Shown piece by piece: positions 2,661 through 22,374 of a stretch of 24,909 nucleotides of DNA (position 1 is the stretch's first letter; the number at the start of each line of letters is the position of its first letter). A program made the translations under genes and the position numbers. The notes under the pieces were generated by a model. The model did not search any database and was not told the DNA's origin. It saw only the letters and a list, made by a program, of their open reading frames with translations. Source of the stretch: Spirogloea muscicola (lineage: Eukaryota; Streptophyta; Zygnematophyceae; Spirogloeales; Spirogloeaceae); contig WELB01000013.1 of the NCBI GenBank assembly GCA_009602725.1, positions 595,532 to 620,440 of the forward strand, read 5' to 3'.

Positions 2661-3150
2661 TCAGGCTAGAGTCTGTGTGACTACTGAAGTGTCTGGCTTT
2701 GACATTTACTTATGTACTACTTATCACCTCACTTGAAGCCTGGTGCCGTAAGACATATAATGAGTACTATCTTTTTCCATTGGGGTTGTCAGGGTGCATT
2801 CAACACATCTTACTGTTGCTGAAAGCGACCATTGCTTTAAAGAAGTAGGTTATGTATTCTGAAGAATGGAAGGAAGGGTCTTCAAAGGTACTCTGCGAAG
2901 ATTTGGGACCACGTTGAAGCAGTTGTAAGATCTTCACTTATGAGAGGGAGGCCCACTGCTTGTTCCTTGTTGACCGCAACGCGTTCCATAACATTCCGTG
3001 ATGGGAGAAGAGCATATTCATGGCACAAGTGATAATGCAAGAGTTGTCTTTGCAGGCAACCCTCCTGTCTTTGCAGAAGAGCTGCAGCCGAGCACCCTGA
3101 GGGTGGGTGCTCGAATATGCTCTCAATGACGGCGGCAACAATCCAAAGAA
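2661..3150. other. Intergenic region including the AspRS 3' flank
   Basis: This stretch lies immediately downstream of the aspartyl-tRNA synthetase stop codon and should contain its 3' UTR. I found no TGTAA polyadenylation motif on the minus strand here. No recognisable coding sequence is present. Confidence 0.5.
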
Positions 3151-6100
3151 TCAATGTGAAAGAGGTCTGTGCTCCACTGTCGAGGCCAGAGAGAGCTCCT
3201 TGAGTTGCACTGGGTCGACTGTGGAGGGTGCATTGGTAAGCAGGCACTGAGCAGTGGTGGACTTGGGAAACGCAATGACGTCCCGAATTGAGGACGTTCC
3301 AGCCAGCAGCATCGCCAGCCGGTCGATGCCATAAGCGATGCCCCCTGCGTAATATCCATGAACGGAATCAACACATTAAGAAGAGCAGCCTCCGCTCCTC
3401 AGATTTGAAGTTGAGGCTCAATCCCCACAGACCCTGAAAGCTCCTGCATTTCTGCATCTCGTAAAGAGATTTGCTGCTCGCACACTGCCCGAAGTCAGTC
3501 TGTGGAGCATGCAGATCCTGCTCACCATGAGGCGGAGCCCCCAAGTCAAATGCCTCCAGAAGGTAACCAAATTTCTCCTCTGCCTGAAATTCAATTAGCA
3601 TTTCCAATCAGCAGATGCCCGCTTCTGAGGAAGTCTCTGAAGCAGACGTAGTCCTTACACTCCTGTCTGTTCCGGAGAAGAAAGTATCCTACTAGTGGAC
3701 CTCAGCACATACCACAGTCGATGACATGCCTATGATGTCAAATACTTTCTCCTGGATGTGGCGCTGAAAGATGCGCAAGCTGCCACCTCCTATCTGTGCA
3801 GCACAGTAGTCAAAAGCTTGATGTCTCAAACATGTCCTCACACATTCTTCGAGGTTAGCTGGTGATGCCCATCTACTCTGAGAGTATGAAGATACTTGAT
3901 GGGCTATGTGCAAGTCGAATGTATCAGAACTTGGAAATGTATACCTCAACTCCATTGTAGACAAGGTCATAAGCCAGAGCTCTGGCTGTGCTGAGGTCGT
4001 CCAAGTCCTCTGGATGTGGAGCAGTGAATGGGTGATGAAGTGCCTGACCACATGGTGACGTAGGGTGTCAGGCCGCAGGTTCGTCATATACTCCAACAAA
4101 AGTATTTGGCAGTACACACAGAGTTGCTCTGTTTGCTATGTAATCAGGGACGGCACTAGCAGCACATTCAGCAAGGGCCTGCCGAGTTTAATTTGCCAGT
4201 GACCTCCAGTCGCTGCTCCTCCACATTCCACTCAAACATTGGGAAATCGGTCACCCACAGAATCGCATGTTCTGCCTGCAAATTTGCACGCCAGGAGTTC
4301 GGCAAACTGAATGAGGAGCCTAAGAGCCAAGATGCACAATGAAGTCGGACGTAGATGTCTGTGACGCTGCAATGCTTCTGAGTGCATCTACAAGACAAGG
4401 ACCCCACCAATTGAGACGAGGCTGTGAAGATCTATACAAGAGGGCAGCAGCTTACTGAATGTTTTCTGAACCTGGTCAACGAAGAGGGTAAGACACCATC
4501 CCTTTACATTGACCCGCATGGCAAGGAAGAGTATCAGGTGAAGACCAGCATACCTCGTTCAACAACCCCAGGTTGCGAGCTAGATAGTTGCGAAGACGGT
4601 CAAGAGTCTTGTTCACCAGCGCTACTGGCCCGGCTGCAATGAGGACCAAGTCTCCAGTGGTGGCACCGCAGCGCTCCAGAAAGTCAGCCCTGCGCACGGG
4701 AGTGAGGGCTGCCGCGACCGCAGGGATGGCATCGATTTCACCTAAAACATCAGACATGTAGGTTATGAGAAGTGTAGAAATCACTCATTACCTTGTGGTG
4801 TCCTGCCTGCAGACCTTGTTCATCACGAATTATTTAGGAGAAGCAGGTTGCGTCAAGTGGTGGGCCGTGCTGTGTGTGGACTTTAGAAAGAGCTCAGAAA
4901 GAATATGACTGTTGAGAGGAGTGGCAGTACTCTTACCTCCTTCCAGCACCTTCATGTAGGCAATGCCTCGGGACCCAGCACTGACAGCCTCCTGGAACAC
5001 GTCACCCTTCTTCAACCGCGTTGTGGACACCTTGCCGGATCCCCCCGGCACTGTGATGGCCTTGACCAGGCCGCTATCAGATATGGCCCCAGAGAACACC
5101 TTAAATGTTGAGTCCTTGACGAGGTCAGATACCTGCAACACACGTAGGAGTGTTGTTACGCTGTCCTGACAAGCTCTAGTAGGCCTAGCAAATAATACAA
5201 TATAATTGTGTAAGACGTGTTTCCAGCACAGCCCGTGTTCCCAATGTGGCATTATGTTGCAGCAAAAGCAATGAGCCATAAATCTCACATCGACACACTC
5301 CATGCCAAATCGGAGGTCAGGCTTGTCGGAGCCGTAACGGTCCATGCAGTCCTTGTAGGTCAGGCGCTGAAATTGTGGGGGCAGCTCCACGCCTTTGACT
5401 TCCTTAAAGACCTGTGAGATACGTGCAAGCCTGACAACGTCATTCAGGATGAGAAATATCACGAGGTAATGCGAACAAACTTGTTGCAGAATAGCACACA
5501 CGCAGGATTGCAACAGCTGGCCCTGATTCTGAACTTAAGATCGAGTTTTACAACCAGTTGCCAGGGGTTCACGTTAAGAAGACAGTCATTCAAAATCACA
5601 AGACAGTCCTGCGACAGGCTACCGTTGAAATTTGGTAACTGCAGTGGCAGCTACAGGCAGGCAAGCATCACCAACGTGGCGAATGAGGTCCTCATTGACG
5701 GCAAGCATGTCCTCCCACGGCGTGAAAGCCAGCTCCATGTCAAGCTGCGTGAACTCTGGCTGCCGATCCGAGCGCAGGTCCTCGTCACGGAAGCACCTAC
5801 CAGAGTTGCAGCAAGGGCTCTGTAAGACAACGTTTAGACCTGCTGCTTCTCCTGCGTTCGCCACCTTTGCGTACCTATGGAGTGGCATGGCCAGTGGTTC
5901 GCCGTGCCATGAGTTGTCCTTTGGTGCTCAAATCATCATCAAATTCATGAGCATAGCATGCTCAAGGACTACAACGCACAGACATCCATTGGCAGGGCTA
6001 GTCCCTGGGGCACCAAATGGAGCGAGCGAAAACGGGCTGCCTGAGGTATACCTGGCGATCTGGTAGTATCGGTCAAAACCAGACACCATAAGCATCTGCT

Positions 6101-7861
6101 TGAAGAGCTGAGGGCTTTGCGGCAGCGCGTAAAAATGCCCCGACTGTGCAAGCACAGCATGTGACCAGTGCAGTTGGTCAGTCTGCTGACGGTCTGCAAT
6201 CTCGATCAAGTGCAAGCTCTAAACTCAGACTCTGAAAGAGGTGCATAACCCACGGGGGAGAAGCTCCGCATAGAGGACCAGCAGAGGTAAGACGGATACA
6301 GAGACAACACTCCTATATGAAAAGCAGAGGGACAACCTGCACACGCGATGGTACCAGAAAATCTCTGGCCCCCTCTGGCGTCGACCTCGTGAGAATGGGT
6401 GTCTCTATCTGTGTGTGCAGTAGAGGCAATGCCGCGTAAGCAACACCATCAAGACTTTGACACATACGCAGGTTAACGGAGCGCCTTAAATGCGTAGACA
6501 GGGTTTGCAACCCACAAGGCTGGACACACCTCCACAAAGCCAAGGACGTCCTCAAGGTACCGCCGCAGCGCCTTGACAAGCTGGTGCCGCAGCCGCAAAT
6601 TGCGGCTCATCTCCAACCGTCGCAGGTCCAAGTGGCGATACCTGCGCCGTGCGAGGTACAAAGCTCAGAGCTGAAGTAGGGCTGATGCCACGTGTGTGGA
6701 AGCCAAAACAGATCTGACATATTTATCAGGTTCAGCTGCAGCTGTGGTTCCGTATTATCAACGTTAAAAATGAACCCAAAGCATCAACCCTTCACTTTCC
6801 ATGTTATGCCCGGAGCCCTGACCTCTTTCTGCAGCAGTGGCTTTGACATAGTAAAAAGAGTGCTAAATATGTGGATTTTGTGTTGTTGAGTTCTGCTAGC
6901 GAGTGTCCCTTGAAAGGAGGTGGGTGATGGTAAACAGCAGTGCACCTGAGGCGCACCTCCTCACGCACATGGTCCACCTCGCCCTCGGCAATGGTCACTG
7001 GGAATGGCAGCGCGCCACGGACCACATTTAGCAACTGCAACGACTCTGCCACAACCTGCAGAGACGCCCACAAGCCATCCCCACCTGCAGAACGCCTCAA
7101 CACCAGCAGCTTTGTAGCGGACGTGGTGAGAGGCTAACATAAGTGGACCGCTGAAGATCATATTTAAGGAAGGCCGCCGCACCTCAATTTCGCCTGTTGC
7201 CATGCGGGGGTTTGCAAGGCCTTCGGGCCGCAGCCGCACTGTGCCCTCGACTGCAACCACGTACTCGATGCGCACACGCTCCGCAGCGTCATGGACTGCC
7301 GGAAAGCCAACGGGGTCTGTCGTCACCTGTGGGCCCGCAGTGGCACAATGCAGGAGCTGAGGTCCACCAGGCACGTCAAGGCCGAGCAGGCAGTGGTCGC
7401 AGTTAGCGGCTAAGGGTTAGGGTTCAGGATTTGAGGTTTAGGTGTCAGAGTTTAGTTTTAGGGTTTAGGGTTTAGGGTGGGGGGTGGGCAAGGGGAGGAC
7501 CTGCACGATGCCGGAGTCGTCCCGGAGGTTAACGAAGGCCACCCCGCCGTGGCTGCGCTGCGACGCCACCCAGCCGCACAGGCGGACGCGCGTGCCTGCG
7601 GCGGCAGCGCCCAGGTGGCCGCACTTGGCGGTGCGGCTGGCCCAGGCCATTGCCGGCTCCACGTCGGCAGCAGCAGCGGGCGCCGCGCCGCGGCTGCCTC
7701 GAGACGCGGCCCGGGGCGGCCCGGAGCGCACAGGCGATGCGGGCGAAGCCGCCGCCGCCGCCGCCGCCGCTGCGGCGGCAGAGGCTGCCCGAGGATTGGC
7801 AGCTCCATGGCGACCGCAGCGCGACCCCTGCCGCCGCAGCTCGCAGCAGGCGGGCGCTCAT
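3151..7861 (-). CDS. Aspartyl-tRNA synthetase, bacterial/organellar type, 15 exons
   Basis: Class II enzyme that charges tRNA with aspartate; the bacterial-type form in a nuclear genome is expected in chloroplast and/or mitochondrion. Exons in transcription order: 7861-7501, 7326-7183, 7055-6946, 6641-6530, 6408-6337, 6143-6052, 5796-5676, 5411-5289, 5132-4937, 4741-4554, 4275-4204, 4043-3945, 3793-3713, 3583-3526, 3344-3151; all introns are GT-AG. From the in-frame Met at 7650 the protein is 603 aa, near the bacterial length of about 590. It has an OB-fold anticodon-binding domain ([11 protein letters not shown]), QSPQ (205-208), motif 2 FRDEDLR (229-235), the bacterial-specific GAD insertion (from about 309) and motif 3 GIAYGIDR (541-548). 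The presequence starting at ATG 7861 ([17 protein letters not shown]) looks like a transit peptide but is out of frame with the enzyme. The join lies in a GC-rich alanine/glycine tract, so an assembly indel or missed micro-exon is likely. The end of the gene and exons 2-15 are certain; the start is not. Confidence 0.95.
7410..7477 (+). repeat. Interstitial plant-type telomere repeat (TTTAGGG) in AspRS intron 1
   Basis: Three perfect tandem TTTAGGG units occupy 7457-7477, preceded by degenerate units (TAAGGGTTAGGG, GGTTTAGG, GTTTAG) back to about 7410. The whole block lies in the first intron of the AspRS gene (7327-7500), a few bases from the donor. On the coding strand it reads CCCTAAA. The unit is the canonical telomere sequence of land plants and many green algae. 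Confidence 0.9.
7750..7779. repeat. GCC trinucleotide run
   Basis: A near-perfect GCC/GGC run inside the presequence region of AspRS. Depending on frame it encodes alanine, glycine or arginine. This is where the transit-peptide frame and the enzyme frame fail to meet, and such runs are prone to indels in cells and in assemblies. Confidence 0.8.
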
Positions 7862-9047
7862 GCTGGACTCCCCGCTCGCGTCGCAGAGCCGGGAGCTCGC
7901 CTGGACCCGCGAGGCGCTCGTCGCAAAATTCGGCACTGACGACAGCGTGCTCTTGCGGCGGCGGCGGCGGCGATGGCGGCGGCGAGGGAGCTGTTGCTAC
8001 TTCCGGGCCCTCCTCCTCCGGGCAAATACGCGAATGGATGGATCCGACGCGGCTGCTGCTGCCGGAGGCGGGTCAGCTATAGCTCAGCAGCAGGTGATGT
8101 ACACCTGTCAAAGAGCTTGCCGTTGTACTTGGCCATTCAGGCCCTTCGTTACTCAATACACACTCCATTCTTCCTGGTGCTGTGGAAGCCAGCCAGGTTC
8201 ATTCAGAGGGTGTTCTTAACTACTTTATCCGGAGAGAGAAGGGGAAGCCTTTCCAGGAAGACTGAAGGCGAAAGGGGCGAGGCGATGGCCGTGAAAGGAA
8301 TGAGCAGGGCACTGCGAAGCATCAAGGCGCACATATCAGGAAAGCTGGACGCTCAGATAAGGGCAGCTTGCTCGCAGCTAAGATGAGGTGCACATGGCAA
8401 GCACAGTTGGGCTCCATTGCTGCACGGGAAAATTGATTTGCTTTGCGGGTACGTGTGAGGGCTTCCGTCGTGGAGATAGTACTTGCTGAGCTTATACCTG
8501 TTACTACCTATCTAGTGCAGAGTCTTTTGTCGTTAGGCATATGGTTGCAGTATGGCAGCCCAGTATCTCTTCCTCCTTGTTTCAGATGCCGTTATGTCCA
8601 CAGCCAGACTCTGATAAGTATGACGTGGTGCTTGTGAAACAGCTACATTGCATAGTGTTCTGGTTGCACTATCACGCTGTTGCTTTTTGACGCTTTGACA
8701 ACCTGCAACACAGTACTGGACGTATGCATGAAAGAAGGTATTTAGTGTGTGTGCAAGTCTCCGGCATTCAAGTTTCCGAGGTCGCCCTTGCCAAGCCCCA
8801 ATCCAATTCTACAATGTTGATATGCTGGACAGGTGGTCATGCTTGGTCTTTTATCACCTTGCAAAGCACCTCAACTCGCCCAAAACACTCATGAACATTC
8901 AAGCACCGGATAATGCTCAAGCTCAACCCCAACTTGCCGATGGCAAGTGTAAACATGATAATAATACACGTTAATATACAAATAATCAGACAACAAGCTC
9001 GTCCTGACACAATTTTATATGAGTCATGAGCTGGAACAGCTCTCATA
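7862..9047. other. Intergenic region upstream of AspRS and downstream of the ABCA2-type gene
   Basis: Both flanking genes are on the minus strand, so this 1.2-kb stretch should contain the AspRS promoter and the 3' UTR of the ABCA2-type transporter. The part next to AspRS is very GC-rich with CGG runs (about 7955-7985); the rest is AT-richer. It holds repeat B copy 2 (8069-8157). No clear TATA box for AspRS and no minus-strand TGTAA for the transporter were found. I recognise no gene. Confidence 0.5.
8069..8157 (+). repeat. Dispersed repeat B, copy 2
   Basis: Second copy of the sequence at 1081-1165, same orientation, sharing GCTCAGCAGCAGGTGATGTA and the CTCAATAC/CTCGATAC right end. It lies about 200 bp upstream of the likely AspRS start, so it may be in or near that promoter. 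Similarity fades on both sides. Confidence 0.7.
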
Positions 9048-12000
9048 TCAATTAACAGGAGCTGCAACTGGAAGGGGAGATGCAATACCATTGGCTCTAT
9101 ATGGCATTGGTGAAGAGATGGAGGCTATCTTTAGATTGCCTTCCGTATCCTGCGTCCAGAATACCTCAACCATCAAACCAGCCGGATTTTCTGGTGATAT
9201 TGAGTTTGGGACGGCAACGAGGCGGCATCCCAATGGGACCTGCAGGCAAAGGCATGGCAGAAATACTGAAGGCAGCTGCTTAAAGAAGAAGCAGGTATTG
9301 AGGCAAAGCAATACAGGTATATAGATATATATTAGAGAGTAAGTGCTTAGTTTAATCTAAGATATATCTAACTGCTGCTTTCAGTTACTGCTTTGCCTTG
9401 GTGATGCACAACTTACATGCAAGGTGGTGAAGTCATTCATGTAAAAGTCCTCGAAGCGGGACTCCGATGATGTGTTCTCTAGTTCAGCTTCCTGGGCTAT
9501 CTTCAGAAACACCTCCTCCAAAGTTGTAAGAGATAGCTGACAGTCACTCACACCCAACGTAACTCTCCTCTCCTGCAGGGCTGCGAAGAAGCTCTGCACA
9601 ATGGATTTGAAGAAAATTCTTGGTCAGAGCATGAATCCAGCTTGACAAGGTCTTGGAGAGACACTCGTGAGGGCGGTGTATTGCTGGGCTAGATAGCAAC
9701 ACATGAACATACAAGAAGCAACTTAGCAAAGAAAGACGCTCACAGTAAGTCGCGGTTCAAGTTGTCTGGGAATGAGAAATCTGATGTAAGGCCCGGAGTT
9801 GCTCGTTGGCTCTATGCCCAATTGCTGCAGACACACGCCACTCTGTCATGTTGCAGGCCTTGAAGACCAGGCTTTGTATACAAGACTCGCACATTCGTCA
9901 TCCCTCTGAAGCTCCTCCACATTTAGGGGGGACGTAGCAAGTCTTCTGTGAGAGTTGTCAGCGTACTAGTACCCTGCAAAACTCAATCGACAATACTCAC
10001 CTCCTTCACAAAGTCCTTCACAGCCACTGCCCGCTGGGCTTCAGCCGCAGCCTGGCCAGCCAAATCCGTGTCACTGCCAACCTTGCGAGGGCCAAGAGCC
10101 CGCACGGAGAGGTTGAGGATGTAGCCCGCCCCAAACTTGGTCTTCAAGTGGATGGATGTCCCCAAGCATCTTACTCGCCCTCTGGCCATGATGGCAATCC
10201 TGTCGCCCAGGACGTCTGCCTCCTCCATGGAGTGTGTGGTAAGGACAACAGCTCGGCCCTTCTTAGCGGACTCGAGGATGTCCCACACATGCCGCCTTGT
10301 CACAGGGTCCATGCCAGTCGTCTGCTTGACACACGATATGCCACACTATGGAGACCTGTCAGATTCACGTAATAAATAGCTTAGCTACTCTTATGCATGT
10401 AGGCTCTCGCAGGTCTGAGCATATTGGAGTGCCATGTCACTGATTGAGCAGTATGGAGGTAATCAACAAGCGCAGAAGAAGCGGACCGGCTCATCAAGAA
10501 AGACGATTTCAGGATCGCCTATCAATGCCACGGCAACGCTAAGCCTACGCTTCATGCCCCCGCTGTAGCTCCCTGCTGGGACGTTGGCTGCCTCAGTCAA
10601 TCGAACTCTTGACAGGAGGTCTTCTGTTTCCTGTTCAAAGAATAGTAGAGCAAGCTTGCAATCAGTTGCTTGAAGCACGTTGCCATACTAAAAATATCTG
10701 TCAATATTTTATGAGGCTTCCATAATAAGCAGATGGCTTGCGGGGGACCTAAGTAAGAACATACAAGATGAAGCTGGCTGCTGGGAAGGCCCTTTATGAG
10801 CGCAAAGAGTCTCAGGTGCTCCCGCCCTGAGAGGCTGTCCCACAGGATGTCAAACTGCAACATGCAGCCATGATGGGTCAGAGCATTCAAGCTGAGCACA
10901 GGCAGCGCAGACTATATTGGAGTGTTGGCGATGAAATATTTTGAGGAAAATTACAGTCCTAAATAAGAGATCTCGAACATTACTTTGCAGAGGCCTTTGC
11001 CATCACCTACGAAGCTGGACTCAAGGACTTGGGCAGTGGTCAATCTGAGACAGTCTACCTGAGGGCAGACACCCATCTTGCTTCGAATGCGCGTCATGCC
11101 TGCAGGGCTCTTGATGGAGTCACCACACACCAAGGCTGGATGGGATGCCACCAGGTCACAGGAACTCAGAGATTGCTGTCTTACAAACTGACTAGGCTAG
11201 GCTGCATAGTGCAAATGTGCGCATCGTGGTTTATTGATAAAACATTTCCCACAATTGACACATATTGCTCCAAGCAGTTGCAAATGGGCTTTCCCAAATG
11301 AAAAGAGTCCTTGCACAAGCTCTTGTAGACCACATGCTTGCAAATGTGTGTTAGGCTTTGTTAAGGCTGCCATTGTACAGCAATGACATTCGAAGAGGCC
11401 TCCTGGGCTGTACAACTAAAGGCTGAGATGCGGCAACAGATTGAGGTCAGTCCGAGCTATGCAGGCAGTATCACAAGGAGGGGGCATTTGTTGATTAGGA
11501 GGGCTCACCATCGCCGCCTGTGGAGGGGATGATGCCCGTGAGGCAGTGAATGGTGGTGCTCTTGCCTGCGCCATTGGGCCCCAGCAGGCAGAAGAGCTTC
11601 CCTCGCTCCACATTGAACCAAGCCCCCTGCAAGGGGACACCAGCTCAGAGCTCAGAGGAGCAGGGAGCTCAGAGGAGCTCAACTCCATGTCAGTTGCCTG
11701 CTGTTTAACCACGTGCACTGAAGGTGTAAAGTTATGAAATTGTTTCACCAACCTTGACGGCTTGGAAGGGCGGCAAGGCTCGATAGCGACAGCAGCCTGT
11801 GCGCTTGCGGGACCCAGCGAAGGTCTTCGCCAAGCCGCGGAGCTGCACAGCAACCGAGGGGTCAAGCGGTGCGCCGCGCCGAGCCTGCTCCTTTATGTTC
11901 TCCTCCTCCAGAGCCACGTCGGCGTCCACGTCAATCGCATCGACCTCAGCACCAGGCCTCGCTACTTGGCCTCTCCTGCCGCAGCAGCCGCAAGCCTTCC

Positions 12001-14666
12001 CTGCAAACTTGCACAAGCGCCCAGGGCTCATGAGGCAGCGCGCCTCGGCAGCAGGTTGGCGATGTCAGCGCATTGAGTCAAAGCAAAGGGTCGTGTAAGC
12101 AGAAAGAGCTCAGAGCATGACAGACCTTCTGTGGTAGCCCCGGAGCGGCCAAGCCAGTAATTTGGTGAGACAAAGAAGAGCCAGGGTCTGCGGACGCCAC
12201 TGTCATTGGGGAATACGTTGTCGAAGTACAACGCCAGGACGACCCAGATGACGAACGTCACAATCAGCCACTTGTAGATCACCGACTGCGCACGAGTGGC
12301 ACGAGCTGGAGTGATGACTCTGCCTGACATCACAATATCATTTAGCAGGCCAAAATGGTTTTGTATCAAATGGCAAAGCCTCCACCATGTCAAGACGAGT
12401 ATGATGGACTGACCAAGGTGATCACGCACTGGTCGTCGCGAGGAGGGCACTGGTCAAAATTCGACCAGTTGGTACCAGGGTCCTGTGGCGTGGCGGTTGT
12501 GTCACCCAGGTACTTGAGCCCGATCGTCAGCAGGTTTGGTGGGAAGACCGACCACACCCACCACAACACATCCGCAAATTGCTTGTCGTACGGAAACCCA
12601 AACTGCGTGATGAGCTGAAAGGAGCAGAGCAGTCGAAGGAGCGGCCGATTGTCAGCTGTGAAATGCTCAGTAACACACCTGGTCTTTGCAATGGGAACCA
12701 GAGAGCAAGCTGACGCTGCATCGTAATAGAGCACCTCGGTGATGAAGCCAACAATGAAGATGCTGAATCCAAGGGTTGTCGCAGACGAGGACGCCTGCAG
12801 GAAGGCCGAAAGCATGAACGCAAACCCGATCTGCATGCGACAGTGAGGGGCCCCTCAGGAGCATCAACACACAAACATCGGCTGCCAAGCTTCACAGCAC
12901 CATCATGTTCAAAACTCTTCCAGTTGCATCCTCAACGCAGTCCAACCACGGTTGCAATCCAGAGTCGTAGACAGAGAGCGCCAGACCCCAAGAAGGCAGA
13001 AACTCGGCGCTTTGATCAAACAGACGGGGGGCTTTGGCATGGACCATATTGAGACCGAAGAGGAAGAAGAAGATGTAGAGCACGCTGAAGTCGTTGTGGC
13101 GGAAGAAGTCGAACTGGAAGGCGAGGCCGAAGAGCACGAGCAGCAGGGCCCACACGGCCGCCAGCACCGCCTCCCACAGCAGCCACGTCAGCCAGTAGGC
13201 TGACTGCAGCAGGCCCATTGTCGCCATCGCCTGTGCCACGAACATTGTCCACCACGCCCGCCGAGCCCGCAAGCACGTCAGTGCGCGCCGCTTGTCAGGA
13301 AGCTCAATGGCTGGGAAACTCAATGGCTGGCGTTCAGTGATGCTGGCACCACAGATTCATCGCTAAAGTCGTAAGCGGGCTGCTAATGCATGGAGGTGGA
13401 GGACTTGGGGACAGGGCACCCAAGTGGCAGCAGCACCTGACGCAGGTGAAGTTCCTTCTCGCGTACAATTGCGCTGATCTGAATGACAAACCCAAACATG
13501 GCAGCAGCAAACAGGAAAGTTGGCCCGATGGTGGCCACCTCCGAGAACGTGTCAATGGCCGGGTGCGCGAACTCGCGGAAGCTCGGTGCCCACACAATGG
13601 ACCAATCTGTGCGAGGCACAGGCAGCATCGCCAACATGAGCAGAAGCACAAGGGGGCTATCACAGTGCCATCACCCTGCTGCAGGCAGCCTCCATCTGCA
13701 ACAGCACAGGGGCCGTACCTCTGGAGATGTAACGAGTGATCTCGCGCTCAGCGGCAGCCTGCAGTGGCAGCTGGAACTTGAAGTTGGGGTCTTGGAAGTT
13801 GCCGCGGTATGCTACAACTGTGGAGTTGCTTTGCAGCCCAAAGCCGATGCCACCATTGGCCAGCTCTCGCAGGTGCAGTGCAGCAGGTGCACGCAGCGTG
13901 TGAGCAGCCAGCCAGTCGTCCACGTCTGAGGGCGTCGCAAAGCCCAGGACCTTCATCAGGCGATGTCATTGCTGAGACATATTCAGGAGAGCTTGATTGT
14001 GAGCTAATGAAGTCCTACAAGTGGTAGCTAAGTCGGAGGGGGGGAGGAGGGAAGGGGGGGGTGGGAGAAAGCCTGGGAGAGGTGCTTGATGGTGGAGTGG
14101 CACGGAAGGAGAGGGAGGGAAGAGCAGAAGAGGGAGGAGAAAGGGGTACAGGGGAACCACAGCCAGTGGGCCGGACGAGCATAGCCATGCCAATCACCTT
14201 GGTCTGGAGGTCGATAGGCCGGCCATGGTTGTTGAGGGATATGTTGCGGACAAGCGAGGCGAGGAGCGCGGAGCCATTGCCACTCCAGAGGAAGTCATAG
14301 CAGGGCTTGCGGATGAAGTAGCCCTCCTCGCAGGCGGGAATGGGCGTCACGGCCTCGGGCCCGGGCGTGAAGAGGTTCTTGTAGCTGGTGTCGGTGGCGT
14401 TGTTGGCATCGATGGCCTTGCCGACCGCCCAGATGAGGAAGACGAAGAAGAGGGAGGAGCCCAGCTGGGAGCACCCGATCGGAGAGCGGAGACAAGGCCC
14501 AACGTCAGAGGAGGTGGAGGAGGGTGCCACTGAGCGTGGGAGCTGCGAGGATTGGCGGCCTCACCTGCAGCGCGGTGGAGGCCCGGTTGCGCCAGCTGAG
14601 CAGCGCGTTCTTGCCCAGCAGCGCGCGGCACTGCTGCAGGAACAGCGGCAGCCCGGCGGCGCGCAT
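9048..14666 (-). CDS. ABCA2: Half-size ABC transporter, subfamily A, ABCA2 subtype, 17 exons
   Basis: Probable lipid transporter with one membrane domain followed by one nucleotide-binding domain. Exons: 14666-14565, 14464-14198, 13950-13719, 13606-13437, 13230-13045, 12830-12735, 12614-12414, 12285-12126, 12000-11753, 11626-11509, 11135-11059, 10854-10765, 10630-10487, 10321-10001, 9824-9744, 9593-9417, 9239-9048; all GT-AG. The product is 953 aa. A cytosolic N-terminus ([13 protein letters not shown]) precedes TM1 (about 35-55), an outer loop, then TM2-TM6 between about 224 and 440. A Cys-rich, acidic linker leads to the NBD: Walker [10 protein letters not shown] (570-578), Q-loop CPQ (619), signature YSGGM (671-675), Walker B IVFLDEP (691-697), D-loop GMDP and H-loop His727; all catalytic positions are intact. 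The TTGMDP D-loop context and the C-terminal tail with [12 protein letters not shown] identify the ABCA2-like plant subtype. ATG 14666 is chosen because it begins a conserved N-terminus. It is divergent from the paralog starting at 15938. Substrate and membrane are unknown. Confidence 0.95.
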
Positions 14667-15937
14667 CGGAGCGGCGCCAGTGGTGAGTGGGAAGCGAGGA
14701 GCGCGACGGTGGCGGCGCCGCGAGCTCGCTCGCAAGGGACGGCCGCGCGGGCGCCTGACAGCCGGACCGATCGCTGGCCGGGGGGGGGGCCCCGTGTCTG
14801 TCACAGTGGTAACGACACAATGGTATCTCTCAGCCACCTTAATTAGCATGGTACCTCGTTTCGCGTAGCCCCACTACTTGCAAAACCTTTTTGCCGTCAC
14901 AGCCTCGGCTTCACTTGGCAACCCTTGCGGTTCGCATGTCCGCCCGCCTTCCCAGCTCCCCCCCCGGCATGGGGCCGCGTCGGCCCGCCCGGCCGGGCGG
15001 CAGCTCGGGCGAAGGTTCCTGCCGGCGCCTACGCCCCGCGCGCTCCCGGGGGACCAGGCCCTCCCGCCGTCTCGCAGATGGGCGACGGGCCGAGCGGACG
15101 TTGGGCCAGCCACGAGGATCCCCCCCCCCTCCGCCTCCTCGGCAGCTTCTCTCCCACTTCCTCGCTGCCTCCCCCCCGGTGAGAGAAGGCGCGCGGGGCG
15201 CATGAATTGAAAGGGAGGCCAATTCAATTCAAGCCAATACATTGTTCAGGCAGAGTCGAGTGCAGACTAAACAATGCTACATAATACGGAGACCTAATCT
15301 AAGGTACCTAAGATGACATTAGTACCCACGGGTGAGCACAAACAAATCTGACAAGCTAACTTGGGGAGCTGGAGCGCCGCCACGAAAGCCNAGCCAGCCC
15401 AGTAAGGAAAAGTGGACGAGGCCCATCCGGCCGCGCCAGGGATCACCCCGGCAGCCTTCCCCGCCCTGCGTCTCCCCCGGCGGGCCCGCAGCAGCTTCGC
15501 GCCGGGCGCCGCGCCCGCGCCCCGAAGCGGCGCGGCAGCGCGTGCGCGGCTGCCGGGAGGCCGCGGAGCAGCGGCGCGGGCGGGGGCAGGGAGGGCCGGG
15601 AGAGCTTGGACAGCGGGGAGCGCGAGGAGCGAGGGAGGACGGGGGCGGGACGTCTGTACGGGCTGCGGAGCGCGACTGCGTCCGATGCGGCTGCGGAACT
15701 ACGGATGATGCAGGAGCGACGGATGATGTAGTCGCGGTAAAGCGCGCGGAGGAGCCGGTGGTGCTGGACGAGCGGCTGCACAGCGGCGCCTGCTCCGTGC
15801 TCTCGCATGTGTCGACGAGCGGCCGTGTAGTAGGCGCGAGCCAAGATCTCCCCGCTTCCCCCTGGAAGCGGCCAGCTGGGAGCTGCTCCCACGGACTCTC
15901 AGCGGGAGCGCAGACGTGCGGACGCTGCCCAAGCACT
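14667..15937. promoter_or_regulatory. Shared upstream region of two divergent ABCA genes
   Basis: This 1271-bp stretch separates the start codons of two head-to-head transporters and must contain both promoters. Long GC-rich segments (about 14690-15180 and 15420-15700) flank a moderate-GC block containing repeat A copy 2, which has CCAAT (15234-15238) and a TATA-like TACATAA (15278-15284) about 40 nt later, facing the plus-strand gene. One base is undetermined (N at 15391). Long frames across 15332-15937 are by-products of high GC. Transcription starts cannot be placed from sequence alone. Confidence 0.6.
15181..15340 (+). repeat. Dispersed repeat A, copy 2
   Basis: Second copy of the 504-668 sequence, same orientation, with small insertions (for example an extra AATTC unit near 15220) and substitutions. 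The left end GAGAGAAGGCGCGCGG and right end ACGGGTGAGCACA are kept. It lies in the region shared by the divergent ABCA genes, about 600 bp upstream of the plus-strand start codon. The CCAAT box is conserved, while the TATATAA of copy 1 is TACATAA here. Confidence 0.8.
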
Positions 15938-18900
15938 ATGGACGAGAGCCGGCTTGCAGCACGCCGCAATCAGCTGCGCAGCACGTTCGGCACACAGGCC
16001 AACGCGCTCACCCGCAAAAACCTCGCCTTCCAGGTGCCGCAGTGAACCCTTTTTGCTTCCTCCTATGTGCACCTCGCCAGGCCCAGTGCACGGATTCCTG
16101 AGCAGTGCGAGAGGGGTGGCAGTCGTGAGAATCACAAAGCCGATCCTCACGACTCCTGGCCCCGTCTTATATGCTGCTGACGTGCAGAAGCGGAACTGGA
16201 AGTCGAACTGCAGACTGGTCAGCGCGCCGATCATTCTGTGCCTCGTCCTGGCAATCATCCAGGCTGCTATCAACGGCCTGCTCAGCGGCTCTAAATACAA
16301 GGCGAGGATGATGATACTCCACCTTCTCTCCCTCCTTCCACGTCCCTCCTTCTCCCTTTCCCACTCTCTCCCACAACAGTGCCGTGTTTTCAGCTATCTT
16401 TCCATTATTGGACCTTCCATCCTCGCTCATTCTCCTCTGGTCCCTCTCATTGCGCTGGCCCCTCACACCTTTCAAGCTGTGGATATCACTTTGTGACGTC
16501 GGGCGCAGTGCGGCTGCAAGTGCGTGGAGTACGACTCGAGTAACCCCAGCAAGTGCATTGACAAGCGGTGCGGCCTTGAGGTGGGCACCCGCCCTTGGTC
16601 GACTCCTTGGGCAGCAGCACAAGAGGTCTCCTCTCGCTTGGTGCTTTCGAGCGAGTGCGGCACGAGGGCTGGCAGCTGACAGGTCACCCTCCTCGTTCTC
16701 TGTCCTCCAGTACTCAGACAACGACCAGGTGGCTTACTGCGGCGTGCCGCACCCGACGGAGTGGCCTGCAGTGCAGCAGGTGGCGCAGCCGAAGTATCGC
16801 GCCGCCGAGACGCCAGCTGACGACCCTTTCCCATACCCTGGTTACCCACCGTCAAGCTGCCGCAGCAGCAGCAATGCCGCGAGCGAATGTCCGGCCACGC
16901 TGCTCTACACCGGGGCCAATCGCACTACTGCCGACGGTGAGTGCTGGTGCTGCTCGCCCGCCCTTGGCTGCTGCCTCTGCCGGATTAGTCGGCGCCTGAA
17001 CCAGCAGCCATCTGCGGGGCCTGCAGCTCTTGCAGGCCACTTGCTTCAAGATCCAGCGGGGCTCGCGACCCTGGTACAGGCAGCGGCCAACAACAGTGAC
17101 GACCTGCAGCTCTTGCTGGCCCAGCTGATCCCAGTGAGCCCTCCACCAAACAACCTCTACTCCCAACCCCCTTCTCACAGCTGTGGCGTGGCCACAGCTG
17201 TAACTGATGCAAGCTCCCCCAGACAGCGGTGGTCGGTCACAGGCTTACACTACCGCTGTCGCTGTCGATGCCGCTTGCCGCGTGCAGGCATCGGGCACGT
17301 ATCCGTGGTCAACGCTGTACTACGAGTCGGCAATCACAGCGTACGGATTTCAGGGGGGCTCACCTTTGTACGTGCTGCGGCACACGTGTGCCGGCCTGCG
17401 CAGCGGCGTCAACATCACCATTCCCATCGTTGGAAATATTACTGCCGGCATTTGTGCGTGTGCCAATCTTGACCCCTGCCGAGGCACCCACTGGCTCGCA
17501 CGCTCCATCCACCACAGTACTGGTTACTGCTCAGCCTCTGTTATCGTCGCGTGCTCTGCAGTCTTGCAGTGCTTGGAGGGCCTGGCGCTGTGGCGCAGCT
17601 CGGCAGCCGAAATCAATCGCGAGTTGTATGCGGGGTACTACAAAGCGAACGTGCCGCACCTCATTGATGAGGTTTCTGTTGGTGAGCTGCGAGCCCGTCC
17701 CCCTTCATCCTTGGCGGGATCTCCTAGAGCTTCACGGGTGTTCTTGAGTGACTCATGGGTCCATGCCTGCCGATCGTCTATTGCAGCATATGACTTCCAG
17801 GACACTGCGCCTGGGCGCTTTGCCATCAGCGTGCAGTACAACGAGACATTTGCAAACAAGTCAAGCGGTGGGGCGCCCAACAACTTGCGCCTACCTCGTG
17901 CACTCAATCTGGTCCGTGCAATGACCCAAGCTTGCTCAAGAGTGTCCGTGTTGACCAACAAGTCTGCGTAAAGGAAACAGCAAAGATTGAGTGGAAGCAG
18001 AGTCAGAGTCTGGTGCATGCAAAAGCGGCTGTGCCTTCAGCAGCAGCAATCTCCTGGCTGCTGCGAATGGGGACTGTGCAGGCAACAAATGCGTTCGCAC
18101 GGCTGGTGAATGGCGCGGCGGCGTCTGTGCCCCTGCTATTTGTCAAGGAGATGCCTAAGCCGTCGACAAAGCTGCGCCTTGACTTCTCCTCCCTCCTCGG
18201 CCCCCTTTTCTACATGTGGATCCTGCAGCTCCTCTTTCCTGTATAATCCTGCACTCTTGTGGACTTAATGGCTGCATGTTGTCGTACACCTACTTTCTAC
18301 TACATTTGCCTGCATTTTATTGTACTCATACCGAGGCATACAAGACTGGATCTCTTTATTAACCAGCACCTCATATTGTGCAACAAAGGTGATGGTAGGC
18401 CTGCTCGTGTACGAGCGGCAGAAGCACTTGCGCATCATGATGAAGATGCATGGCCTTGGCGATAAGTCCTACTGGCTGGTCTCGTACCTGTACTTCCTTG
18501 TCATCTCCTGCACCTACATCGCCTTTCTCATTCTTTTTGGATCCCTTGTTGGTATGCTTCCCTCTATGCAAAACGCTCCATCTGTGTTCCATACTACGAT
18601 GGACCGCTGTCTTCTGCATTGCACACATCCAAGTCCAAATGAATGTGCCATGCATTGTGCACATTGCAAATCATTAGAAGTAATTTCTCCACATTGTCTC
18701 CAACTCTCCTCAGCCCTGTAAGTTGTTGCCACAGAGGAAGGTGACCCCGGTCTTTTGACAGTTGTGTCTCTTTACAAGGACTATCTGTGACCCCCCTCAG
18801 CTGCTTTCACAGGCCTCAAATTCTTCCGCAAGAACGACTACGCGCTACAGATTCTCTTTTACTTTGTGTTTGCCAATTTTCAAATTGCCTTCAGCTTCTT

Positions 18901-21900
18901 CGCCTCTTCATTCTTCAGCAATGAGAAGACCGCCACAGGTTCTTGCTGGTCCCACGTGGACTCCTGCTTGACTCACATTGTTCAGAGCGATGCCTACTTT
19001 TCATACATGAAAGCTATTGCAACCTGACCCCTCGGAAACTCAAAACCTCACTCCTCATCGTTTTGCACTGCCATGGCTGGTTGTGTTGTGGATCACTTTG
19101 ATATCTCTTTGTTTCCTCGATCTCAGCGTCCCCTCATTGCCTGCAATACACACTTCAATGGTGCAGTCACGTGCTACTTGTATGTCTATGGTTCGGGCCT
19201 GCTCGGTGCCTTCCTGTTCCAGTTCTTCTATGAGGACCAGCATTTCTCTCGTGGGCACCTTGGCCACTACAACCACCTAACGAAAAGTGCATGGGACAAG
19301 TTCAATTATGTAAAGAGGATACATCCTTAGGTGCAGCCTTTAGAAACATACGACGGCGATTGTGGTGTACAGGCATTCTGGAGATACTATGCAGCCTGCT
19401 CTGTGAAGTTTTTATGACATAGTAGCATGTGCTGGGCAGCATTGCTGACAATGACTTGTCCTTTGAGGTGCAGGCGGTGCAGTATTTGCCATGGAACTTC
19501 TCCCGTGCTTTGCCCTGTACCGGGGGCTTTACGAGTTTGCGAGCTACGCATTCCTTGGGGACTACAATGGCACAGGGGGCATGGGGTGGAAGAACCTTGG
19601 CGATTCTGACAACGGCCTGCCTGTTGTGTTCGCCATTCTGGTCATTGAGTGGCTCATATTCTTGCCACTGTCCTATTACTTTGATCAGGTTCACAATGCA
19701 AAAGCTTTGTTGCCTTTTCCTGATTTAATGCAGCTGAATTGACACCCTCTTCCTTCAAAGCATACAGAGTGCTAAGTCAAGCCTCAGTTTCTCTTTCTTC
19801 AGGTAGCGGTCTCTTGGCAAGGGCAAGTAACTGGATGTTTAAAAATATTAATGATCACTAAAGATACAATGATCAACTCTCAGCATGGTACTCTCTCAAT
19901 GAACAATGCTGCTAAGGTGAGTCTCTGAATCCCCTTGTAATTCTGTGCAGGTGTTGGCAAGTGGGAGTGGCGTGAAGCGGCATCCGCTCTTCTTTCTGGA
20001 TCGCTGCCGACGGCGGGCTAAGGCCGACCAGCTGCTTAGCGACCGGCATGCCCAGAACTCGACTGGCCAAGTGGACATAGAGCTTGACCGACCTGACGTG
20101 ATGCAGGAGGCAAGTGTGATCAGTGATATGTTATAGACAACATGCTTTCTTCCCCTCGTTGGTTGGCGGCCAATGTACTTCCAGAATGCGCTCTCATGCT
20201 GTTGCGGTAGTGTATTTCTTCTGAGAGACCCCATGTCCTGGCTGAGACACGCTTCGTATCGAAGTCAGTTAATTGCTCACAGTGGATTCATATTTGAGCA
20301 GAGGGCAATGGTGGCGGAGTTGCTGGAGCGCGGCAATCTGGGAGGGCACGCCATCATTTGCGACGATTTAAGGAAGATGTACCCTGGACGTAATGGGAAT
20401 CCTGACAAGCTCGCCGTGCGGGGGATGTCCCTGGCCGTCTCGCGGGGCGAGTGCTTTGGCATGCTTGGCCCCAATGGCGCGGGCAAGACCTCCAGCATCA
20501 ACATGGTATGTGGCCCAAGCTCGTTGTCATCACTTCACTGCCAGTTGCTAACAGCAAAGAAGCATCACTGTGGGCTGTTGCAAAGATCTGTAAGCTTGTG
20601 CTTGATAAACAGTCCTTGATTTCTGGCTCCCCTCACCCTTGTAGATGATTGGGTTTCTGCCACCCACTTCTGGATGTGCTTGGATTGAGGGCTTTAGCAT
20701 ACTCGAGGACATGCCCAGCATTTACTCAATCATGGGTGTTTGCCCACAACATGAGTAAGTCTGCCAAGCGTACTGTCAAGCGACCCCTTGGTTTTCTGAG
20801 GATTACCATGACTACTATGATGACTTTCGTTTAGTAGATAACACCCCAAGATGCAGGCTGGCATGTAGACGTCCCTTGTGTTGATCGAGCTTTTTGTTGA
20901 CGACGGAGCTGCGCCGCTCTTCATAAATTTGCACTGGTTGCGATTGTCTTGCAACGTCTTGCAGCCTGCTGTGGGAGCAGCTGACTGCCAGAGAGCACCT
21001 CCTCTTCTACGGGAGACTGAAGAACCTGAGGGGTCCTGCCCTCCACCAGGCAGTCACCCAGTCCCTGCAGAGCGTCAACTTGCTCAGCAGTGGCGTGGAG
21101 AATAAGAAGGCTGGCACTTACAGCGGAGGCATGAAGCGACGGCTCTCCGTTGCCATCGCTCTCATTGGCAATCCGCTGGTGAGCATGCCTTTGATGGAGG
21201 GAAATTCCTCAATAGAGATTCTCTCCTTGATAGTGTCTGCATGTACAGTGTACATTCACGCCACCCTGGATGTACGAACTCACTGGCAGACAATATGACC
21301 TGCAGGTGGTGTACATGGACGAGCCATCGACTGGCCTTGATCCAGCTTCGCGTCTTAACCTCTGGAACGTGGTGAAGGAGGCAAAGAAGGACTGCGCCAT
21401 CATTCTCACCAGTATGCATCCTACGCCTTAGGCTACTCATGATTTCCAAGAAGATTGTTGCTGTCTATATGCTGCAGTTGTCAATCTGCAATGCTGGTGA
21501 ACAAAGTGCTTTTGAATTATTATGGCATTGTGAAAGCGCTCTGGCAGGCCTAATGTGAACACGTACAACACATGTAAGTAAATATCTGGTTCTTTTGATG
21601 CAGCACATGCAATGGATGAAGCGGAGGCGCTTTGTGACCGTATTGGCATTTTCGTGGATGGCCAGTTCAATTGCATAGGGAATCCCAAGGAGGTATAGAC
21701 TTATTTTGGTTGAGAAGCTGCCAACGTTTTACAAGCTGTCTCATGCATCTTGCTAGCCTGGTCTTACAGCTGTGGTCAGTAACGTAGGGTGCTGTTGGTT
21801 TCACTGAATGCTTCTCCAAGCCCTTGTCTTGGTTATGCTGGCTGATGATCATGCAGCTGACATCCCGGTATGGGGGGAGCTACATGTTCACCATCACAAC

Positions 21901-22374
21901 ACCACCAGAGCATGAGGCTGATGCTGCTCGGTTGGCGACCTCCCTCACTCCAAATGCCAAGAAGGTGTACAGCTTGTCTGGCACCCAGAAATTCGAGTTG
22001 CCTACCAATGAGGTAAGACAGCATGTAAGAGATATCTGAGTGATGAGGCCAGAGGTACTGGACATATTGACCTAGGCACTGGCCTTCACGTCTGGGTCAT
22101 GGCTAATACCGCCTGAGGTTGCTTCTGCTGCAAAGCTTATGTAAGATCGTGATGCTGAGCACAGTTGGACTGCACTACTTGAATGTTCGAGTCAAGTTTG
22201 AGCTGCAAGCATTTGGTGGCTGGCACGCAGGTGGAGATTGTTGATGTGTTTAAGGCCGTGGAGCAAGCCAAGCAAGCGATGCAAATCCAAGCCTGGGGCG
22301 TGGCCAACACCACCTTGGAAGATGTATTTATCACCATTGCCAAGGAGGCTCAGGAGGGGACTGTACTTTCTTAG
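15938..22374 (+). CDS. Half-size ABC transporter, subfamily A, ABCA3-12-like subtype, 21 exons
   Basis: Probable lipid or fatty-acid transporter, one membrane domain plus one nucleotide-binding domain, 984 aa as assembled. Exons: 15938-16033, 16188-16301, 16509-16580, 16711-16936, 17027-17133, 17288-17453, 17562-17681, 17787-17911, 18082-18240, 18389-18551, 18813-18938, 19167-19250, 19474-19688, 19951-20109, 20302-20505, 20645-20754, 20965-21178, 21306-21411, 21604-21692, 21857-22012, 22231-22374. TM1 is at about 45-65. A large outer loop begins with Cys-rich CGCKC and contains [11 protein letters not shown]2-TM6 follow (about 377-590). The NBD has Walker [10 protein letters not shown] (700-708), Q-loop Gln747, signature YSGGM (801-805), Walker B VVYMDEP (821-827), D-loop GLDP and H-loop His857, all intact. 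The STGLDPASR context and lack of the ENP-type tail separate it from the neighbour and fit the plant ABCA3-12 group (Arabidopsis ABCA9, a known member, moves fatty acids into the ER). ATG 15938 begins a conserved N-terminus. The least certain junction is 17453/17562. Two introns may have GC donors. Confidence 0.95.
16302..16508 (+). other. Probable GC-AG intron in the ABCA3-12-like gene
   Basis: Exon 2 ends in TACAAG and is followed by GCGAGG rather than GT. The acceptor GGGCGCAG precedes TGCGGCTGC. This splice gives SKYK joined to CGCKC, keeping the family pattern of a short segment after TM1 followed by a Cys-rich block. No nearby GT donor keeps the frame: the next GT downstream (CCAC|GTCC) is out of phase, and those upstream would remove TM1. 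Confidence 0.7.
20110..20301 (+). other. Possible GC-AG intron in the ABCA3-12-like gene
   Basis: The donor reads GAG|GCAAGT, the exact consensus of GC-AG introns, and the acceptor is TTTGAGCAG before AGGGCAATG. The junction gives DVMQE joined to RAMVAELL. A canonical GT-AG alternative exists 4 nt downstream (GCAA|GTGTGA with acceptor GCAGAG) and would add one alanine, so the GC donor is likely but not proven. Confidence 0.5.

Follow-up and report, generated by a model that had tools for sequence, protein, structure and literature searches.

Two half-size ABCA transporter genes of different subtypes arranged head to head in Spirogloea muscicola, possibly an old linkage

By following up a preliminary description of a genomic stretch of Spirogloea muscicola (24,909 nucleotides of contig WELB01000013.1, positions 595,532–620,440 of the forward strand; the whole stretch is called the window in the following) we could show that it carries two complete half-size ABCA transporter genes which lie head to head, gene A on the minus and gene B on the plus strand. 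The description had proposed that two such genes diverge from a shared region of 1.27 kb. This holds: the coordinates are right, the gap from ATG to ATG (14667–15937) amounts to 1,271 bp and the exons join in phase. Position 9048 is the last base of the stop codon of gene A and position 22374 the last base of the stop codon of gene B (Table 1). We suggest, with about equal confidence for and against, that the window holds a divergent pair of two old ABCA subtypes, that is, lipid transporters which would be induced together via the shared region and whose neighbourhood would have been inherited from an older ancestor.

Both products have the architecture of the half-size plant-type ABCA proteins (ATH), as a transmembrane domain (TMD, PF12698) is followed by a nucleotide-binding domain (NBD, PF00005) in chains of 953 and 978 (or 981, see below) amino acids. 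The nearest solved structures of both are human ABCA3, ABCA4, ABCA1 and ABCA7; ABCA3 is matched with E 1.5e-142 by A and 2.6e-134 by B, and the first chain from outside the ABCA family follows at 1.1e-47 and 6.4e-47, respectively. These human proteins and the full-size ABCAs encoded on contigs C142 and C321 of the same assembly have the TMD and NBD families in common with A and B but, unlike them, contain two TMD–NBD halves per chain. A search of NCBIfam with the pair yielded generic ABC names only, with none of the matches listed above the cut-off. In Pfam, on the other hand, the C-termini tell the two proteins apart: A, and not B, matches PF25158 ('ABCA11-like, C-terminal', E 7.9e-16), and B, and not A, matches PF24526 ('ABCA12-like, C-terminal', E 1.9e-23). 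Neither family was reported at the full-size loci on C142 and C321 among the candidates scored.

Judged by these C-terminal markers, A is a member of the branch of AtABCA2, AtABCA9 and AtABCA11, and B of the branch of AtABCA3–8, AtABCA10 and AtABCA12. In the passages of the literature that were searched, to which all statements on published work refer, one half-size branch comprises CrABCA4, AtABCA2, AtABCA9 and AtABCA11 and the other CrABCA1, CrABCA5, CrABCA7 and the remaining half-size AtABCAs (PMC9605142). The preliminary description was right in seeing two different plant subtypes, but its label, ABCA2-like versus ABCA3-12-like, was inexact, as ABCA9 and ABCA11 group with ABCA2. Another study recognizes three groups among the plant ABCAs, the half-size G1, the full-size G2 and the half-size G3, regards each of them as ancient and finds G1 and G3 in every species examined, including Chlamydomonas and Volvox (PMC9164057); the branch of A would correspond to its G3 and the branch of B to its G1. 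That the two half-size types separated early can already be taken from that publication and is not new here.

The two genes are deeply diverged from each other. A and B are 32% identical over 651 alignment columns (31% overall), and none of the 16 introns of A shares its position with an intron of B; the nearest pair is one alignment column apart and in different phases, and the intron positions thus give no sign of an intron-bearing ancestor common to both. Trees of the NBDs were calculated with 17 sequences and, with the sequences of a further eukaryote added, with 20 sequences. This eukaryote, which was found in a bin of the GTDB set (the pond bin, see below), has genes of both types, and these served as outside references in place of plant ABCA sequences. 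In the tree of 20 sequences window A is joined with pond A and window B with pond B (99.6/100 each), and forcing window A and B as sisters against the pond sequences is rejected by a log-likelihood difference (delta lnL) of 102 and the approximately unbiased (AU) test (p 1.5e-51). A tree with the two genes as closest relatives had been named beforehand as a refutation, and the branching found is by subtype first. The sequences support an ancient split of the two ABCA subtypes. A recent local inverted duplication of one ABCA gene might also be considered, as the pond bin contains two B-type genes head to head; against the rejected sister grouping, the identity of 32%, the absence of common introns and the different C-terminal Pfam families, we regard its chance as negligible.

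The pair is not confined to the window. The marker searches of the 153-Mb assembly scored the best candidates only, and absence elsewhere is no proof. Among these candidates PF25158 was matched at three loci, on C13 (the contig of the window), C45 and C4, and PF24526 at two, on C13 and C45; each B-type gene found (2/2) adjoins an A-type gene. C45 carries the same head-to-head pair and is collinear with the window from 4.1 kb to the right end, over everything that was fetched, with small gaps and in pieces of 86–91% identity. C4 is collinear from 2.8 kb to just short of exon 3 of A, next to which a run of N (to C4:1074752) starts that covers the place where B would lie. The region 2801–4800 of the window matches C45 at 85% and C4 at 86%. 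Apparently three diverged collinear copies exist in the genome; they are about equally far apart and look like haplotypes or subgenomes. In spliced alignments the copies on C45 have the same exon numbers as those in the window and no stops (A 921/952 aa, B 957/978 aa), and the copy of A on C4 is free of stops from residue 123 onward (799/831), its exons 1–2 being inside the run of N. The dN/dS values of 0.105 and 0.119 for A and of 0.045 for B indicate purifying selection. As far as the readable segments show, the A–B pair is kept within this genome. That two unrelated genes were joined by an assembly artefact is highly improbable: there is one N in the shared region (15391), in addition to the run of N beside A on C4, but the same junction with collinear flanks is present on the second contig C45.

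The shared region, which presumably holds both promoters, is less uniform. Its counterpart on C45 comprises 1,923 bp; a stretch of 724 bp adjoining A can be aligned at 87% and one of about 500 bp adjoining B at 81%, with extra sequence in between. Short repeat elements lie at 15181–15387 in the shared region and at 502–668 near the left end of the window, with further matches in C45 and C4, and part of the extra length on C45 matches such a repeat stretch in inverted orientation.

Further ABCA sequences were noticed in the assembly. The region of gene A is found on C13, C45 and C4, and the match pattern of a full-size ABCA on C142, C176 and C343; the gene is on C142 and matching patterns are on the other two. 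A second kind of full-size ABCA is encoded on C321, with a partial match on C238. A decayed remnant of the two terminal exons (16 and 17) of gene A is located at C13:519292-519860 (+), about 85 kb past the 3′ end of A and inverted, with 83/120 residues identical and one stop. A shorter match on C45, 272041–272271 (−), corresponds to residues 817–890 with two stops and lies about 88 kb past A, likewise inverted. Perhaps these relics stem from an old second A-type copy that had decayed before the segments diverged.

The exons were placed by hand from the open frames and the splice sites and were then checked against the homologous copies. A purpose-written spliced aligner, which in the window was run on B, reproduced the hand model of this gene exactly, the stop codon apart. 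All 36 introns of A and B give phase-consistent joins; 34 are of the GT–AG type and two of the GC–AG type, both of the latter in gene B at window positions 16302 (GCGAGG) and 20110 (GCAAGT) and both present in the C45 copy. Because of the comparison with C45, exon 5 of gene B most likely starts at 17027 rather than at 17036, nine bases upstream, which would add three residues and give a protein of 981 aa.

Table 1. Positions of the two ABCA genes, their exons and the predicted domains and motifs of their products (window coordinates)
Feature	Position	Strand	Remarks
Gene A	9048..14666	-	half-size ABCA (TMD-NBD), ABCA2/9/11-type, 953 aa, 17 exons
Gene A exons	14565-14666, 14198-14464, 13719-13950, 13437-13606, 13045-13230, 12735-12830, 12414-12614, 12126-12285, 11753-12000, 11509-11626, 11059-11135, 10765-10854, 10487-10630, 10001-10321, 9744-9824, 9417-9593, 9048-9239	-	
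Gene A transmembrane domain match	12228..13529	-	PF12698, residues 227-438
Gene A nucleotide-binding domain	10318..11626	-	PF00005, residues 555-699; Walker A 570-577, signature YSGGM 671-675, Walker B IVFLDE 691-696
Gene A H-loop histidine (727)	10232-10234	-	just past PF00005 match
Gene A C-terminal subtype marker ABCA11_C	9173..9512	-	PF25158, residues 859-913
Shared divergent region	14667..15937	.	from ATG to ATG, 1,271 bp; GC content 69%; a single N (15391)
Gene B	15938..22374	+	half-size ABCA (TMD-NBD), ABCA12/10/3-8-type, 978 aa, or 981 with exon 5 from 17027; 21 exons
Gene B exons	15938-16033, 16188-16301, 16509-16580, 16711-16936, 17036(or 17027)-17133, 17288-17453, 17562-17681, 17787-17911, 18082-18240, 18389-18551, 18813-18938, 19167-19250, 19483-19688, 19951-20109, 20302-20505, 20645-20754, 20965-21178, 21306-21411, 21604-21692, 21857-22012, 22231-22374	+	
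Gene B transmembrane domain match	18178..19674	+	PF12698, residues 372-581
Gene B nucleotide-binding domain	20419..21327	+	PF00005, residues 678-822; Walker motif from 694 (10 protein letters not shown), CPQH 739, YSGGM 795, Walker B VVYMDE from 815
Gene B LTTH (H-loop)	from residue 848	+	just past PF00005 match
Gene B C-terminal subtype marker ABCA12_C	21881..22249	+	PF24526, residues 888-938

A similar arrangement appears to exist in Arabidopsis. The preliminary description had noted that ABCA2 lies beside ABCA3–ABCA8, and the order of the RefSeq numbers agrees with this: AtABCA2 (At3g47730; PMC4304824) is NP_190357 and AtABCA3 is NP_190358, continuing to AtABCA8 with NP_190363. The same applies to AtABCA11 (NP_200977) and AtABCA12 (NP_200978) and to AtABCA9 (NP_200981) and AtABCA10 (NP_200982; PMC3823996, PMC4304824). 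From accession order and branches, all three A-branch genes, AtABCA2, AtABCA9 and AtABCA11, would adjoin a B-branch gene (PMC3823996, PMC9605142). As in the window, half-size ABCAs of both branches have neighbouring numbers in these three cases, and the numbers seem to follow the gene order in Arabidopsis. We take AtABCA9–12 to be located on chromosome 5 and AtABCA2 with AtABCA3–8 on chromosome 3, and in the three pairs the A-branch gene is presumably reverse and the B-branch gene forward, which means divergent and head to head like in the window. Arabidopsis has several copies per type, whereas here one A and one B are found in each of the two wholly readable segments. In grape VvABCA2 and VvABCA3 are both on chromosome 17 and show 23% similarity, their distance and branches not being stated in the passages searched (PMC3823996). 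Usable ABCA positions were absent from the searched passages of the surveys on soybean, pepper, peach and eggplant, and no statement on a linkage between the two half-size branches was found in the literature searched, supplements being outside the search.

Chlamydomonas offers a different picture. CrABCA4 (Cre14.g613950, formerly CrABCA2) and CrABCA5 represent, like A and B, one half-size branch each (PMC9605142). Seven ABCAs are known from this alga. The searched part of its ABC survey counts 69 of the 75 ABC genes as dispersed and names three small-scale pairs, which belong to the ABCC, ABCB and ABCG families; unlike the genes in the window, CrABCA4 and CrABCA5 are not among the adjacent pairs named.

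The pond bin came from a scan of the GTDB contigs with A, which yielded 48 loci, one of them near full length on JAIYDP010000259.1 (L012). The A-type gene found there is 48% identical to window A over residues 4–932 and contains PF25158. The bin is labelled Verrucomicrobiaceae; because the gene has three introns of 35–38 bp, the contig is of a eukaryote. On the 9.4-kb contig C30 of the pond bin (L063) two B-type genes, both with PF24526 and 44.3% and 40.5% identical to window B, are arranged head to head (4792–1533 minus, 5321–8540 plus). Thus this eukaryote has the same A and B types as the window and differs by having A and B on separate contigs, a divergent B–B pair and introns of mostly 32–38 bp. 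No genes of the light-harvesting complex (LHC) were found in the pond bin, which says little as the bin may hold only part of the genome. With its eukaryotic contigs under the label Verrucomicrobiaceae, the pond bin (GTDB bin G001) represents a contamination of the reference genome set. Among viral contigs the B pattern had no matches (0), and the 62 pattern matches of the A alignment included no relative.

Several points weigh against an inherited and functional neighbourhood. C45 is a young witness for the linkage because its DNA is still 86–91% identical to the window, and the spacing of A and B as well as the middle of the shared region vary between the two copies (1,271 versus 1,923 bp). 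The part of the Chlamydomonas survey that was searched names no ABCA among the adjacent duplicates, and on the 45-kb contig of the pond bin that carries the A-type gene the sole B-type match is this A gene, the linkage thus being absent there within the reach of the contigs. Since the two B-type genes of the pond bin are head to head, a divergent ABCA pair can arise by local inverted duplication. Finally, Cre14.g613950 (CrABCA4) has been localized at the plasma membrane and the Golgi (PMC8633747), contrary to a role at the endoplasmic reticulum (ER). Two old paralogues may accordingly have been brought together by rearrangement here and independently in Arabidopsis, each forming its own homodimer in a neighbourhood without functional meaning. 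This would accord with the linkage not being seen in the Chlamydomonas survey or the pond bin eukaryote, with the unconserved spacing and with the catalytic motifs in both NBDs, which would allow each protein to form two working ATP sites alone. But it would be a coincidence if the same two subtypes had been joined twice independently, in one case at both Arabidopsis clusters, and the pair is retained in the second homologous segment on C45; we consider such a secondary adjacency quite possible, though not the probable case. The proposal of the preliminary description that the adjacency was kept from an early duplication in the green lineage is supported in so far as the tree branches by subtype first and the Arabidopsis order agrees; it is not supported as a general rule, given the Chlamydomonas survey and the pond bin. 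An ancient A–B linkage is a plausible hypothesis, though hardly a general one.

What the two proteins do may be judged from their relatives. The import of fatty acids or acyl-CoA into the ER, needed for oil, has been ascribed to AtABCA9 and to CrABCA4 (old CrABCA2; PMC9470853, PMC9123788), and an oil phenotype is reported for CrABCA4 (PMC9123788). AtABCA10 of the B branch raises seed oil (as cited in PMC9605142), and the same source connects AtABCA9, too, with seed oil. Under nitrogen or sulphur starvation CrABCA4 and CrABCA5 are induced in parallel, with a Pearson coefficient of 0.99 (PMC9605142). By analogy with AtABCA9, CrABCA4 and AtABCA10, we suggest that A and B carry acyl lipids through an internal membrane, the ER being the probable destination. 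They might act in one lipid pathway and profit from being induced jointly, for which the shared region would carry both promoters. Their neighbourhood would descend from an ancestor that predates the species and may be the one shared with land plants; other lines such as Chlamydomonas would have lost the linkage.

Half transporters must dimerise (PMC9605142), and each product, being a single TMD–NBD half, would have to do so. A dimer partner of half-size plant ABCAs is not named in the literature passages searched. Possibly a heterodimer is one way to explain joint induction. A stronger form of this idea is that A and B depend on each other as the two parts of a single transporter, comparable to a full-size ABCA that was split, A being the NBD1-like and B the NBD2-like part. 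Deeper in the NBD trees A sides with NBD1 and B with NBD2 of the full-size ABCAs (92.7/94 with 17 sequences, 89/85 with 20), both genes are adjacent and divergent at the only such loci found, and the two branches share an expression trend in Chlamydomonas. Nevertheless, the support is moderate, and the reverse arrangement, in which A goes with NBD2 and B with NBD1, survives the AU test (0.086 with 17 sequences, 0.163 with 20). A clade of A and B against the full-size halves is rejected with 17 sequences by the AU test (0.041) and not by the Shimodaira–Hasegawa (SH) test (0.065), and with the pond sequences it is not rejected (AU 0.111). In addition, it is the first half of ABCA3 and not the second to which the TMDs of the two proteins are similar, and the gene numbers in the pond bin are unequal, with two genes of type B and one of type A. 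The catalytic NBD motifs are canonical in both proteins and no degenerate ATP site is present in either. Since these motifs are intact, homodimers of A or B are possible and an obligate heterodimer is not demanded by the sequence; canonical ATP sites are compatible with a heterodimer as well. Altogether an obligate heterodimer appears rather unlikely to us.

The inherited pair of lipid transporters can be extended to a bolder scheme. The divergent module would then predate the separation of green algae from land plants, its products would form a two-gene heterodimeric importer of lipids into the ER, and AtABCA9/AtABCA10, AtABCA11/AtABCA12 and AtABCA2/AtABCA3 would be duplicated descendants, Chlamydomonas having lost the linkage and kept the co-regulation (CrABCA4/CrABCA5). 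In this full form we regard the scheme as unlikely.

Concerning the surroundings, A is followed on its strand by a coding stretch (about 4479–6218, minus) for an aminoacyl-tRNA synthetase of class II that contains a GAD domain and is probably an aspartyl-tRNA synthetase of the organelle type. Between its exons and the 3′ end of A, at 7413–7478, there are degenerate AGGGTTT repeats in a chromosome-internal position; we take AGGGTTT to be the plant-type telomere motif. In the assembly RbcS is found at four loci, each time as two separate matches as if split by an intron, and there are 68 LHC matches. Nuclear RbcS marks the green lineage, to which the organism belongs on account of these RbcS loci and LHC matches.

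Both genes are members of known families, and that the two branches adjoin is an observation of modest weight, which was not found in the passages of the literature searched. If the linkage is due to chance, the window contains an ordinary pair of transporter genes. If, however, the two subtypes adjoin each other all the way from algae to angiosperms and increase jointly as oil builds up, this would point to one partner for each, and the dimer question would become testable.

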